Below are positions 1 through 38,324 of a stretch of DNA of 64,000 bases, piece after piece; position 1 is the stretch's first letter; every line of letters starts with the position of its first letter. The notes beneath the pieces were generated by a model that was not told where the DNA came from, ran no database searches, and was given only the letters and a program-made list of their open reading frames with translations. The DNA is taken from contig WHTK01000011.1 of NCBI GenBank assembly GCA_009377745.1, positions 1-64,000 of the forward strand, written 5' to 3'. Both the position numbers and the translations under genes were made by a program. Source of the DNA: Dehalococcoidia bacterium (GTDB lineage Bacteria > Chloroflexota > Dehalococcoidia > DSTF01 > WHTK01).

Positions 1-104
1 GTGGTACCGTTCGTCACGCCGGTCATCCCTTCCTGCGCTCAAAGCGCTGCTTTGGGACACCTTATACGTGAGCCCGTCGGGTGACCGGCCTTCTCATCCC
101 ATCT
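1..104 (-). mobile_element. IS110-like element, left-end fragment at window edge
   Basis: The reverse complement of this stretch matches the region upstream of the IS110-like transposase at 22.5 kb almost throughout, including the terminal motif ATGAGAAGGCC (seen here as GGCCTTCTCAT at 87-97) and the preceding AGATGGG. The element therefore ends near base 104 and its transposase, on the minus strand, lies to the left of the window. Only the non-coding left end is visible, so the state of the transposase is unknown. The same end motif flanks the copies at 3.6, 22.5 and 25.9 kb. Confidence 0.7.
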
Positions 105-3512: not shown

Positions 3513-3680
3513 TGAACAAACGGTATTGCGGGAACTAGTCCCGATTGACCGTCTCCAAGTCCGCAGCCCACTTGCGGAGGAAAGCACCGAAGACACTATT
3601 TAAATGGAATGAGAGGCCCGGTACCGGACTCACGTAGAGTGAGTCCAAAACAGGCACGAGAGTGCAGGAGGGTAGCCGAG

Positions 3681-4739
3681 GTGACCAATTCATTTCCTCA
3701 GACGCCAGCTTTGACAGTGGGCATAGACGTATCAGACCGCCTGACCAGTTTCTGTGTGCTTGACGGGCAGGGAGAAATCCTGGAAGAGGGCAAGGTGCGA
3801 ACGAGCCCTGAAGGATTTGCTCGACGCTTTTCAGCCCTGGAGCCGTGTCGCATGGTGATGGAGGTCGGAACGCACTCGCGCTGGGCGAGCAAGCTCCTGG
3901 CAGACATTGGTCATGAGGTGATCGTCGCTAACCCGTGGAAGGTGCGCCTGATTGCGAGTTCGATAAAGAAGACCGACCGCTCAGACGCGGAGACTCTAGC
4001 CCGGCTAGGACGCGTCGATCCCAAGCTCCTTAGCCCGGTAATCCACCGGGGTGCCGCAGCGCAGGCCGACCTGGCGATCATCCATGCTCGTGAATCGTTG
4101 GTGGCGGCGCGCCGTCTCTTGATCAATCACGTCCGGGGTGCGGTCAAACCCTTCGGCGCCCGCCTGCCGGACTGCGACGCTCACGCTTTTCACAAGAAAG
4201 TGCCGGCGGCAGTACCGCCAGAGTTGCGCCCGGCGCTCGAGCCGCTGATCAGCGTCATCGCCCAGCTAACAACTGAAATCCGCGACGCGGACGCTCGGAT
4301 CGAAGAGCTGTGCAGGCAGCGATACCCCGAAACGACGATCCTGCAGCAGATCCAGGGAGTAGGGTCCCTGATTTCGCTGACCTATGTCCTGACCTTAGAC
4401 AATCCCTTGCGGTTCAAAGTCAGCCGGACGGTGGGACCCTATCTGGGACTTGTACCGCGGCAACGCGAGTCAGGCGAGAGGTCGCCCCAGCTGAAAATCT
4501 CCAAGGCTGGCGATAAGTACCTTCGCAAACTCTTGGTCAATGGCGCCCATTACATCCTCGGCTATCGGGGGCCTGACACCGATCTCCGGCGCTGGGGACT
4601 CGCACATGCCGGCGGTGGGAAGGCGGCAAAGAAGCGAGCCGTCGTGGGCGTAACCAGAAAACTTGCCGTTCTTCTCCACCGCCTCTGGGTGACTGGCGAG
4701 GTGTATATCCCGCTGAGGTCTGAGGAGGTGGCAGCTTAG
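3681..4739 (+). CDS. IS110 family transposase (DEDD recombinase)
   Basis: A 352-residue protein with the two IS110 domains. The N-terminal RuvC-like DEDD domain shows GIDVSD (Asp16), MEVGTHS (Glu61) and KKTDRSDAE (Asp99 and Asp102). The C-terminal Transposase_20 domain shows QQIQGVGSLISLTYV, YLGLVPRQRESGER, whose serine fits the catalytic Ser of this family, and ISKAGDKYLRKLLVNGA. GTG 3681 is chosen because AGGAGGG (3666-3672) lies eight bases upstream; an ATG at 3609 would start inside the terminal inverted repeat. No frameshift is seen, so this is the only transposase in the window that looks functional. It is predicted to work with the structured RNA encoded just downstream. Confidence 0.93.
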   Translation: MTNSFPQTPALTVGIDVSDRLTSFCVLDGQGEILEEGKVRTSPEGFARRFSALEPCRMVMEVGTHSRWASKLLADIGHEVIVANPWKVRLIASSIKKTDRSDAETLARLGRVDPKLLSPVIHRGAAAQADLAIIHARESLVAARRLLINHVRGAVKPFGARLPDCDAHAFHKKVPAAVPPELRPALEPLISVIAQLTTEIRDADARIEELCRQRYPETTILQQIQGVGSLISLTYVLTLDNPLRFKVSRTVGPYLGLVPRQRESGERSPQLKISKAGDKYLRKLLVNGAHYILGYRGPDTDLRRWGLAHAGGGKAAKKRAVVGVTRKLAVLLHRLWVTGEVYIPLRSEEVAA

Positions 4740-4769
4740 CTCAGGGGGACAATCCGCGTTCGAGCCAAG

Positions 4770-4950
4770 CCGCGTACAGGGGCGACTGCGCACGATGTGT
4801 TGGGGCAATTGACCCCGTTATTTAAATAGCAGCGCCCAGCCAAGAAAGTACCCCAGTGTGCACCAGGTCAACGACCGAACAGAGTGCGGATGGAAACCAG
4901 GTATGGCTAGCGGAAAGGCTCAAGGCCACCACGTTGGCCTTGACGAGAGT
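4770..4950 (+). ncRNA. Candidate bridge/seek RNA of IS110-like copy A
   Basis: The non-coding 3' end holds a foldable unit. The basal stem is GGGCG-a-CTGC (4780-4789) with GCAGCGCCC (4829-4837). The apical stem is GGGG (4802-4805) with CCCC (4813-4816). Between them, strand one, CACGATGTGTT (4791-4801), is complementary to 9 of 11 bases of the element's right flank (4965-4975). Strand two, TATTTAAAT (4819-4827), is identical to the left flank (3597-3605). Copy B has the same fold with different strands that match its own flanks. Known bridge RNAs use an internal loop in this way to read the target. Exact RNA ends and the donor-binding loop were not resolved. Confidence 0.65.
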
Positions 4951-5005
4951 AGGGCCTCTCATGGAACACGTAGTGTGCTTTGGCAGAATCCAATAGGCTC
5001 GGCTG

Positions 5006-22535: not shown

Positions 22536-23900
22536 AGATGGGATGAGAAGGCCGGTTTCCCGCGGGCTCACGTAAGGTGTCCCAAAGGCAGCGCTAGATG
22601 CGCAGAAAGGGATGACCAGCGTGAAGACACCACGGCACCGGAGATTTCTTGGAGGGGATTGACGGTTGGACTCGACGTTTCGGACAGGTCCAGCAGCCTC
22701 TGCTTCTTGGACGAGCGGGGTGAGGTCGTTGAGGAGGGCAAGGTGCGGACCCACCCAAGCTGTCCTTGAGCAGCGCTTCAGCCCCACTACCACGAAGTCG
22801 CGTTATTCTCGAGGTCGGCACCCATTCTCCTTGGATGAGCCGCTTACTAGAGGACCTTGGGCACGACGTCGTCGTGGCTAATCCCGGCAGGGTTCGCCTG
22901 ATTGCTGAAAGCGTGCGCAAGACCGATCGCTCTGATGCTGAGACCCTTGCCCGATTAGGCAGGGCCGACGTTCACCTGCTGAGCCCGATAACTCACAGGA
23001 CGGCCCAGGCCCAGGCCGACTTTATCGCTCATCAGGGCACGGAGCGCTCTTGTCGCCTCTCGGACACTCCTGATCAATCATGTTCGAGGTGCAGTGAAGT
23101 CGAGTGGAGCCAGACTTCCCACCTGCGACGCTTACATGTTCCATACGAAGGTTGGGCCGTCTATCCCGGACGTACTTGCGCCGGCACTAAAGCCGCTTCT
23201 TGAGGCCATAGCGCACCTGACTCAGCAGATTTCGCAGATCGACAAGAGCATCGAAGGTCTCATTCTGGAACGCTACCCGGAGGCGCAAGTCCTTCAGCAG
23301 GTACCTGGGGTCGGGCCATTGATTTCCCTGACCTTCATCCTCACGATCGGGGACCCGCAGCGATTCAAGAAGAGCCGTCAGATAGGCCCTTACCTAGGTC
23401 TGGTACCGCGCCAGCGCGAGTCCGGCGAACGCAATCCGCAGCTGGGGATCTCCAAGTCGGGCAATCAGTACCTACGCCAGCTCCTGGTCAACGGTTCCCA
23501 GTACATTCTAGGCTTCCGGGGCTCCGATACGGATCTTCGTCGCTGGGGCCTAGCTAAGGCAGGCATTGGCAACAGGAGCGCCAGGAAACGAGCAGTCGTC
23601 GCCGTCGCTCGAAGACTAGCAGTGTTGTTGCACAGGCTCTGGGTGACCGGGGAGGTCTACATCCCTCTCCGGGCAGCTTAGGGCAGGAGGAAGCCGCGTA
23701 CCGGGCGACTCGCACGATCGGCTGGACCGCCGAGTGTCCGTCTATGAGATTGCAGCGCCAGGGCAAACGTACCCCAGTGGGCACCGGGTCAACGACTCAT
23801 GCAGAGTGCGGATGGAAGCGGGGCAAATGCCCAGACGCGGCGGAGAGAGAGCAACGGGCCACCCCACGTTGGCCTTGACGGGGTTAGGCCTTCTCATGGA
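22536..23900 (+). mobile_element. IS110 family (IS1111-like) element, copy B, transposase broken
   Basis: Ends are ATGAGAAGGCC (22543-22553) and GGCCTTCTCAT (23887-23897). The transposase reads in three frames: TVGLDVSDRSSSLCFLDERG up to about 22760; then RVILEVGTHSPWMSRLLEDL and RKTDRSDAETLARLGR up to about 23080; then GVGPLISLTFILTIGD, YLGLVPRQRESGER and LWVTGEVYIPLR to the stop at 23681. At least two frameshifts (near 22765 and 23050-23095) make it inactive, though the DEDD residues and the catalytic-serine segment persist. The 3' non-coding end is well preserved and is listed separately. Confidence 0.88.
23695..23886 (+). ncRNA. Candidate bridge/seek RNA of IS110-like copy B
   Basis: Same fold as in copy A. 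The basal stem is GGCG-a-CT(c)GC (23704-23713) with GCAGCGCC (23752-23759). The apical stem is GGAC (23724-23727) with GTCC (23736-23739), where copy A has GGGG with CCCC. Loop strand CACGATCGGCT (23713-23723) is complementary to all 11 bases of the right flank AGCCGATCGTG (23901-23911). Strand CTATGAGAT (23742-23750) equals the left flank at 22531-22539. The loop strands thus follow the element's own insertion site. RNA ends are estimates. Confidence 0.65.
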
Positions 23901-23961: not shown

Positions 23962-25198
23962 CTAGGGAGCAATCTCCACACGCGCTCCTCGGTCATACAA
24001 CTTCGCCCTCATGGCCTCGAACCAGTTGACGTTCGTGGGTAGAGTCGCCTGGTAGCCGCGGACTTTGTAATAGGTCGGGGCTACTCCAGGTGGCTCGCCC
24101 CCGTCCTGCACGGTCCTTACGGCCTTTAGCAGGGCCCGCCGAGCATGGATGATTGCCCTGTCGGTGGTCCCCAGGCGCTCAAGCGTACGATCTGCAATTC
24201 CACCCATGCTCTCCTGGATCGCGCGATCTTGCGTATTAGTTCCTGGTATGCCGCTGTACGTCTGAGTCCTCTGAAGCTCACGGTCGATCAAATAACGATT
24301 GTCAGCGTTTCTTGTGGATCGGAAGTTCCTCGTCACGTCAACGTCGACGCCAAATTCGTTCCCGTTGCCCACGGGGAGACGTGCGTCCCGCAGCCAGAGC
24401 GCAGCGTCTGGTCCGTCAGTGACTCGTGGGGCCTCGGCCTCCTGCTGTCCACCTTGCCACCGCGGGGCGCCCAACGACGCCTCTTCAGGCGGGTCTTTGA
24501 AGAGAGCGCTACGGTTGTAGCCCATCGTGTTTTCGTCGTCCATTGGGACCCACATATGGCCGCCGTTGCCGCCATTCTCACCATACGCGAGGAAGCTGTG
24601 GAAAGGCATGATCCAGTGATAGGCCCGGACATCCCGGGTGCTTGTGTCCGCGATCTCGCGGATGCCTCCGTAACAGAAGCCGTAGTCGGTGGGTACGACC
24701 TCGACCGTCGGCGACAGTGAGAGGTCGCGCTCGGGACGACCTGCGGCCCTATCAGCAGCGCGCAAGAGCGGCGGCCGGCCGCTGTGGAGGAATGCGGTGT
24801 GTGCTGTGTCGATGCCGCCCTCTAGTGCCTGGAGCCAGTTGCATTGCTGCCAGACTTTCGACATGGCGCGCTGCTCCGGTGGGACTTGGGTCCAGGCGAA
24901 GAGCGGCGGCGCCGGCTTCTTGTCCAGCGGGCCCAGGTAGGCCCAGACCACGCCGCCAACTTCATAAGTCGGGTAGGCTGGGATGCGCACTTTGTCCTTG
25001 AAGTTACTCTCCTCCGGTTCAGAGGGCATGTCTATGCAGTGCCCTTGGCAATCGAACTTCCAGCCGTGGTAAACGCAGCGGATACCGTTCTCCTCGTTGC
25101 GTCCCCAGAAGAGGTGGGCTCGGCGATGAGCGCAACGGGCTCCGACGACGCCGACTTTGCCATCGGTCTGACGAAAGGCGACGAGCTCCTCACCAAGA
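23962..25198 (-). pseudogene. Rieske oxygenase alpha subunit, 5'-truncated by IS110-like remnant
   Basis: The frame is open from about 25198 (KLLGEELVAFRQTDG) and contains the full Rieske site CAHRRAHLFWGRNEENG ... CVYHGWKFD, which lies upstream of the first internal ATG at 25029, and the catalytic-iron segment EGGIDTAHTAFLH. About 40 N-terminal residues found in the two complete paralogs (MLTRVG, RYWNPVLLSSELP) are missing: sequence switches to the IS110-like transposase at about 25198-25200. No start codon or ribosome site of its own is left. Related enzymes hydroxylate aromatic or other hydrophobic compounds with electrons from a reductase, which is not encoded here. Confidence 0.88.
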
Positions 25199-25978
25199 AG
25201 CTTGATCGCCGATCGTCAGTATGAAGGCCAACGAGATCAGAGGCCCGACGCCAGCCACTTGCTGCAGGTTCAGAGCTTCTGGGTATCGAGTCTCGATCAA
25301 GTCGAGCACTCTGCCGTCGGCAGCCTTGATCTCCGTCGTGAGCTTCTCGATAGCGTCGAGCAGAGATCCCATCGAAAGACCTAAGCACTCCGGCAATGCC
25401 GGGCGCGCCTTTCGATGGAAGCTGGTGGAGTCACAACTGGCGAGCTGGCCTCCCACAGACTTCACTGCTCCACGAACGTGGTTGATGAGCACCGTTCGTG
25501 CCGAGATCAGGGCATTGCGACTGCGAATCAGCGCGAGATCGGCCTGAGCCTGCGCGCTTCGGTGAATGACAGGAGTCAGGAGCCCGGGGGTCCACACGAC
25601 CCAGACGAGCCAACGTCTCGGCGTCCGTCTTGTCATTCTTCCGCGTCGACTGAGCGATCAGCTGTACTCTTCGCGGATTCGCAACGACGACTTCGTTACC
25701 AGCCTCGGCGAACAACCTGCTAATCCAGGGCGAATGAGTTCCTGCTTCCAGGACGACTCTCCCGTCAAAGTCAGCAAATCGCTTGCGCAGACTGCTCTCG
25801 GTCGTCCGGAGCCTGCCCTCTTCAAGGACCGCTCCACTGCTATCTAAGTGGCAGTAGTTCGTGTACTGGTCCGAGACGTCCAGTCCCAAAGTCGCCATGC
25901 CAGCCATCCTCCTTGCCCGAAGGCTCGTGCTCCGGTCACTGTACGACCGGATGGCTGACAGGCCTTCTCATCCCATCT
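25199..25978 (-). mobile_element. IS110 family element, copy C, truncated and frameshifted
   Basis: The left end GGCCTTCTCAT (25961-25971, minus orientation) and the transposase start at 25907 (MAGMATLGLDVSDQYTNYCH, VLEAGTHSPWISRLFAEAG, RKNDKTDAETLARLGR) are present. A frameshift near 25590 moves to LLTPVIHRSAQAQADLALIR and on to LQQVAGVGPLISLAFILTIG, where the sequence ends abruptly and the Rieske gene begins. The C-terminal third of the transposase, including the catalytic serine, and the whole 3' RNA end are gone. The protein is more distant from copies A and B than they are from each other. Confidence 0.85.
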
Positions 25979-26881: not shown

Positions 26882-27120
26882 GGCCCCTGGGCATTCTGGT
26901 ATTTAGCCCGAGCCATCCTCGTCCGTCGCTAGTTATCGCGGCGCGATCATCCCGCTAGCCGGCCGGACTGTCAAAGAGCCTTTCAGCGCATGGACACTAT
27001 GGTAAGTTGCCAGCTTCGCAGCCTCCTTCGGCCGGCCAGCTATTGGATGCTAGAATCTCGTCGGCCCGACTCTTGGCGGACTAACTTCCCTGCGCGGCGC
27101 AGGGGGTCGTTGGAGACTGA
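26882..27120. repeat. Long direct repeat (about 240 bases), copy 1
   Basis: Nearly identical to 38085-38324, with only about ten differences. It is non-coding in both places and ends shortly before a gene here (ATG 27134). It begins at GGCCCCTGGGCATTCTGG and ends at GACTGA. No transposase or clear terminal inverted repeat is seen. Confidence 0.9.
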
Positions 27121-29323: not shown

Positions 29324-29341
29324 CACTATCGCCGGATAGTG
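29324..29341. promoter_or_regulatory. Palindrome CACTATC-GCCG-GATAGTG, copy 2
   Basis: Seven-base perfect arms, 70 bases upstream of the substrate-binding protein gene at 29412. Matches the palindromes at 9373 and 38398. Confidence 0.5.
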
Positions 29342-38084: not shown

Positions 38085-38324
38085 GGCCCCCTGGGCATTC
38101 TGGTATTTAGCCGAGCCGTCCTCGTCCGTCGCTAGTTATCGCGGCGCGATCATCGCGCTAGCCGGCCGGACTGTCAAAGAGCCTTTCAGCGCATGGACAC
38201 TATGGTAAGTTGCCAGCTTCGCAGCCTCCTTCGGCCGGCCAGCCTATTGGATGCTAGAATCTCGTCGGCCCGACTCTCTGGCGGACTAACTTCCCTGCGC
38301 GGCTCAGGGGTTGTTGGTGACTGA
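38085..38324. repeat. Long direct repeat (about 240 bases), copy 2
   Basis: Matches 26882-27120 over its whole length with a few substitutions and one-base indels. It lies between the Rieske gene and the VOC gene and is non-coding. The pair is in direct orientation, 11 kb apart. Confidence 0.9.

Follow-up and report, generated by a model that had tools for sequence, protein, structure and literature searches.

A predicted bridge/seek RNA downstream of the transposase gene in an IS1111-type insertion sequence, with guide strands that follow the flanks and ends of their own elements

Copy A, which occupies positions 3604-4965 (+) of the 64-kb stretch of DNA analysed here (the window), is an IS110-family insertion sequence with IS1111-type anatomy, and an RNA encoded 3' of the transposase gene very probably guides its DEDD recombinase. 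Its anatomy, the covariation of target guides and donor guides, the covariation of stems and the empty sites in relatives were each established by comparing sequences. Bridge/seek-RNA elements were first described in 2024 (PMC11187229, PMC11208160), and copy A is a well-supported example of them rather than a new kind of system.

The ends of copy A were inferred from an AG-core alignment of about 45 relatives and from empty sites. The left target flank, AAGACACTATTTAA, lies at 3590-3603 (+), where the core was placed from the empty sites in relatives L072, L033 and L030, and the core and right target flank together cover 4966-4985 (+). The core of copy A differs by side, being AA on the left (3602-3603), where nearly all relatives have AG, and AC on the right (4966-4967). 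The subterminal inverted repeats, ATGAGAGGCCC at 3609-3619 (+; ATGAGAAGGCC at the same place in relatives) and GGGCCTCTCAT at 4952-4962 (+), are conserved in relatives, and their length of 11 bp falls within the 7-17 bp that is the criterion for the IS1111 group. The transposase gene (3681-4739, +) encodes 352 amino acids. GTG at 3681, preceded by a GGAGGG-like ribosome site, is the likely start; ATG at 3609, which opens a 376-aa ORF, falls inside the inverted repeat. The gene is followed by about 226 bp of non-coding sequence (4740-4965) and preceded by about 77 bp (3604-3680). In a domain search, the protein matched the two domains that serve as the criterion for the IS110 family, DEDD_Tnp_IS110 (PF01548; 2.7e-17, 63.4 bits, cut-off 29) and Transposase_20 (PF02371; 1.9e-16, 60.7 bits, cut-off 21.3), and it also matched the model for IS110 family RNA-guided transposases (NF033542; 9e-60, 202.6 bits, cut-off 140). 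Its catalytic D/E/D residues and SG motif align with those of IS621. The GL-P----S(T)G motif is present in the C-terminal domain as GLVPRQRESG, and it is not discriminating, as IS621 and ISCro4 also have it.

The predicted RNA, in which a target loop precedes a donor region, spans 4776-4913 (+), with approximate ends taken from a 41-sequence alignment. The original prediction had described the target loop of copy A from its own letters, and both stems were located as proposed. The basal stem is formed by GGGCGACTGC (4780-4789, +) and GCAGCGCCC (4829-4837, +), the latter also placed by the alignment, and reads GGGCG-A-CTGC / GCAG-CGCCC with a single A bulging from the 5' arm; pair types UA, CG, UG, AU and GC occur at alignment columns 9:94. 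The apical stem GGGG/CCCC (4802-4805 with 4813-4816) closes a hairpin at 4802-4816 (+) that is recovered by both fold and alignment. Between the two stems, the right target guide CACGATGTGTT (4791-4801, +) is, as claimed, complementary to the right flank (4965-4975) at 9 of 11 positions and would pair with its top strand; of the two mismatches, one would form a G.U pair in the RNA and the other is real. The assignment of this guide rests on the match to its own flank and on the family comparison. The left target guide TATTTAAAT (4819-4827, +) has the letters of the left top strand and would pair with the bottom strand. Its identity with 3597-3605 was correct, but not all nine letters are flank: comparison with relatives assigns 3597-3601 to the target, 3602-3603 to the core and 3604-3605 (AT) to the element. 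The same comparison, with exchange at a 2-nt core, places position 4965 within the element on the right side. RNAfold returned the described fold for the 71-nt loop region at -27 kcal/mol, where 8 of 200 shuffles folded as well (z -1.95), and z was -1.17 for 138 nt. The fold of the copy A sequence alone is weakly unusual, and the strong evidence is comparative. No Rfam match above the gathering score was found within the 64-kb window.

A scan of genome contigs yielded 74 loci in several phyla, and a class search added a few more. In about 45 of these loci, the motif GGGTGACTGCG...AGATNGCAGCACCC...CCCCAAC-TGCACC...GAGTGCGNATGGAAG lies 3' of the transposase; these relatives with RNA come from at least six phyla and share about 40-65% protein identity. 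The subfamily was found in a Chloroflexota-like host and in Acidobacteriota, Gemmatimonadota, Myxococcota, Verrucomicrobiota, Actinomycetota and others. The viral contigs searched encoded no relative, and a phylum-wide DNA search gave no useful close relative. Among the relatives, the loop strands track their own flanks and outscored all 20,000 shuffled pairings on both sides, with 275 matches versus a maximum of 194 for the right guide (38 elements) and 188 versus 165 for the left guide (37 elements); these shuffles ignore shared ancestry, but the proteins are only about 40-65% identical and the flanks are unrelated. At the five bases before the core, the left guide matched its own flank in 89, 92, 92, 69 and 64% of cases versus 23-30% for cross pairs, and the match dropped to background at the sixth base. 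The right guide matched in 79-87% at the core G and the next seven bases, versus 42-57% for cross pairs, and in 61% at the eighth base past the core G, with background beyond. Family-wide, the right guide thus comprises 8 nt plus one core base, and the left guide 5 nt plus the 2-nt core, usually AG. In four relatives (L029, L076, L087 and L089), the match is poor on one side or both. RNAalifold on 41 sequences recovered the basal stem, the apical stem and a donor hairpin, with 15 consensus pairs, 7 of which have changes on both sides, and this stem covariation supports the predicted fold. A common palindromic repeat, CCCTGAGCTTGTCGAAGGG, also occurs inside the target loop, and it replaces the left-guide region in two loci from different phyla, L062 (4215-4389) and L089 (4240-4431).

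Empty sites matching the joined flanks, as had been proposed for copy A, were found for its relatives L072, L033, L030 and the multicopy element E. L072 is inserted in one unit of a local repeat, and two uninterrupted neighbour units match its joined flanks at 30 of 32 positions; the flanks meet at AG without duplication. In the first joined-flank scan, truncated flanks gave mostly noise, and the L072 matches alone were kept. L033 and L030 have uninterrupted attC-like counterparts elsewhere in their locus or genome, and these read identically across the junction (GCGCATAAG-CTGC and GCGTTTCAG-CTGC). For element E, the left flank CACACGATCAG (contig C28) and the right flank GCAATAGTGT (C38, C2) join to ACACGATCAGGCAATAGTGT, which occurs uninterrupted, with 20 of 20 positions matching, in a genome from the same order (G350:C36:24847-24866), with the flanks taken from different copies because the assembly breaks at E. 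Together with the guide-flank covariation, these sites support the reading of the structure as the target-binding loop of a bridge RNA placed after the transposase. Separately, L030, L033 (at 920, 2880 and 5129), L077 and L089 sit in repeated TAACG...TMAGCTGC sequences, which resemble the attC sites of integron cassette arrays.

The donor region follows the target loop. Donor guide 1 (ACCCCAG, 4850-4856, +) is complementary to the left-end GGR triplet next to ATGAGA. Across 38 elements, the three RNA bases preceding the conserved A of CCC-A complement the left-end triplet that precedes ATGAGA at 93 of 114 letters, versus a mean of 68.5 and a maximum of 83 in 20,000 shuffles. Donor guide 2, GATGGAAA (4889-4896, +), has the letters of the element's right end, CATGGA; the RNA letters ATGGAAG equal the right end, and where the right end reads ATAGAAG, the RNA also reads ATAGAAG (L048, L064, L069 and L065). 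Both donor guide strands flank the donor hairpin (4860-4887, +), in which GCAC (4860-4863) pairs with GTGC (4884-4887) and compensatory changes occur among relatives (GCAC:GTGC 35, GCAG:CTGC 5, GCAA:TTGC 1 and GCAT:ATGC 1). Considering that the donor guides covary with the element ends, the RNA appears to read the target as well as the donor, and in each case the right-hand guide comes first. An extra hairpin (CCCAGGT...ACCTGGG) separates the target loop from the donor region in L043 (2752-2930) and L048 (1506-1684).

By analogy with IS621 and ISEc11, the RNA would be expressed, the excised element would form a circle intermediate and the recombination chemistry would be shared. The target loop strands would pair with the two flanks of the insertion site, while the donor region would read the abutted ends of the circle, with its 5' strand pairing to the left end and its 3' strand to the right one. 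Recombination of target and circle at the core would then give insertion without target duplication. For copy A, the predicted targets are ACACTATTTAAACGTAGTGT-like, the predicted circle junction is CATGGA-(core)-ATGGAATGAG, and an empty site would be expected to read ACACTAT-TTA(A/C)AC-GTAGTGT.

The host is an incomplete 3.5-Mb assembly of 73 contigs and the single genome of its genus in the comparison, which yielded no orthologous empty site for copy A or copy B. Copy B (22538-23900, +; RNA at about 23698-23836) belongs to the same family and has a decayed transposase with seven in-frame stops; between its guides, CACGATCGGCT and CTATGAGAT, and the flanks of this copy, 11 of 11 and 9 of 9 positions agree. 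Copy D (about 25082-25971 of the window, -) is 3'-truncated with the RNA missing and has the left flank GGCACAATGAAGAT. Element E has its ends at contig breaks (C28, C59, C38, C2, C52 and window 1-104), and at window 1-104 (-) its left end, with the flank GCACGATCAG, is cut by the contig start. Copies A, B and E are each located at the centre of a dispersed 20-bp dyad, ACACKAT-N6-ATMGTGT, and the guides of the three differ. Joined at the core, their sites are variants of this dyad and read ACACTAT-TTAAAC-GTAGTGT for A, ACACTAT-GAGCCG-ATCGTGG for B and ACACGAT-CAGGCA-ATAGTGT for E. The guide of copy A encodes the half-site ATCGTG, so that of its two differences from the right flank, one is G.U-compatible and the other falls at the degenerate position of the dyad. 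A 133-bp direct repeat with 98% identity also occurs in the window, at 26908-27040 and 38111-38243, 11.2 kb apart.

The shared dyad raises the question of whether a protein, either the transposase or another, recognises the site, with the RNA match arising as a by-product of specialisation on one site class. While the location of A, B and E in the same dyad family would be expected in that case, the 6-nt spacer, which is not conserved, is matched by their guides as well (e.g. CAG/GCA and GAG/CCG), and the relatives insert at unrelated sites. Moreover, an element on contig C70 of the same genome, the transposase of which is 54% identical, occupies a non-dyad site that is matched by its own guides. 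We therefore regard recognition of the dyad by a protein as very unlikely, though it is the least improbable of the alternatives.

The similarity between guides and flanks could also be fortuitous or could stem from capture of flank by the 3' region after insertion, for example through imprecise excision, with no guiding involved. Copy A by itself offers one left and one right match, both from a free search, and the left match is AT-rich, as chance would allow. Across about 45 elements with unrelated flanks, however, the matches keep constant positions within a structure that is conserved and covaries. In addition, copies of E that share one guide occupy similar sites, which indicates that the guide precedes insertion; the right flanks of the E copies on C59 and C52 fit the shared guide poorly or only with a one-base shift and count against guiding. 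Fortuity or capture is accordingly given hardly any credence. Nor does the structure seem to terminate or attenuate transcription of the transposase gene, a reading suggested by its hairpin fold and its position directly 3' of the stop codon. No T-run follows the stem, the loop strands change fastest and track the flanks, and another region covaries with the ends of the element, so the covariation data leave a terminator or attenuator highly improbable compared with a guide RNA.

Siddiquee et al. (2024) described IS1111 elements with 3' non-coding regions and two guide segments in top-strand-first order (PMC11187229), and Durrant et al. (2024) reported bispecific bridge RNAs, assigned the RNAs of IS1111 elements to the right end and placed the probable donor nucleotides in a multiloop (PMC11208160). 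Like the seekRNA IS1111 elements ISEc11, ISPa11, ISKpn4 and ISPst6 (PMC11187229), copy A has a DEDD transposase, subterminal inverted repeats and a long 3' non-coding region, places the top-strand (right) guide 5' of the bottom-strand (left) guide and, judging by its relatives, is inserted without duplication, so its anatomy and guide order fit IS1111. The original prediction was right that the right-flank strand comes first in the RNA, but this order is not special to copy A, having been reported for IS1111 (PMC11187229, PMC11208160). Compared with those seekRNA elements, the copy A family additionally shows a covarying donor-reading region, as judged from sequence evidence. In an unrooted tree with few references, the copy A transposase forms its own branch outside the IS5075/ISShdy1/IS5708 clade (99/99) and far from IS621/ISCro4, and the IS5075 transposase is just 26% identical to it. 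Subterminal repeats of 12 bp occur in the nearest plasmid type, which is from Bradyrhizobium. As in IS621 (PMC11208160), a single RNA of copy A combines a target loop with a donor region, each having two guide strands, the core dinucleotide is shared and the 5' guide strand is longer than the 3' one. Unlike in IS621, the RNA of copy A lies 3' instead of 5' of the gene, the strand-flank assignment is reversed in both loops, and its inverted repeats measure 11 bp instead of 2-3 bp; similarity to the IS621 transposase is weak (PDB 8wt6, E 1e-4). IS1111 elements targeting integron attC sites are attributed to Post and Hall (2009) as cited in PMC11208160, and L030, L033 and L077 resemble them in their repeated TAACG...TMAGCTGC sites, whereas copy A is inserted in a different repeated dyad.

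On balance, we favour the view that copy A represents a broad uncharacterised subfamily with a 3' bridge RNA, an AG core and both loops right-guide-first, the reverse of IS621, and that several separately reprogrammed copies in one genome converged on one dispersed 20-bp dyad and entered its exact centre. Within a single genome, one class of repeated host site could thus attract copies with different programming. Programmable bridge recombinases are under development as genome-engineering tools, and the types with a 3' RNA are less characterised than IS621. The family offers many natural guide-target-donor triples outside Pseudomonadota, and as the guide borders (8+1 and 5+2 nt), the AG core, the donor guides and the empty sites are clear, its reprogramming rules are directly testable.

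As for the dyad itself, a search of the genome that allowed spacers of 3-12 found 11 sites, all with a spacer of 6, versus 0 in the control and about 0.05 estimated by chance, and the 18-bp core pattern matched 16 sites. The dyad is patchy in the class, occurring in 21 of 393 genomes, with 8 sites in G350. Its loci (L145-L194) include window 29324-29341, contigs C2, C40, C47, C52, C53, C64, C65, C66 and C73 of G000, and contigs C15, C20, C36 and C43 of G350. Candidate roles are a dimer operator and a tyrosine-recombinase core site; an RNA hairpin was rejected, as the half-sites often fail to pair (ACACTAT with ATCGTGT). Several 6-nt spacers (GTGAGA, CCGGTG, GGCACA, CTGGCC, CAGGCA and GTGGGG) recur in different contexts. 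The dyad is also found 0-5 nt past the end of a long ORF, often one for a large secreted-looking protein, in L186 (2737, 6770), L187 (3412, 5545), L192 (2873) and L155 (7110).
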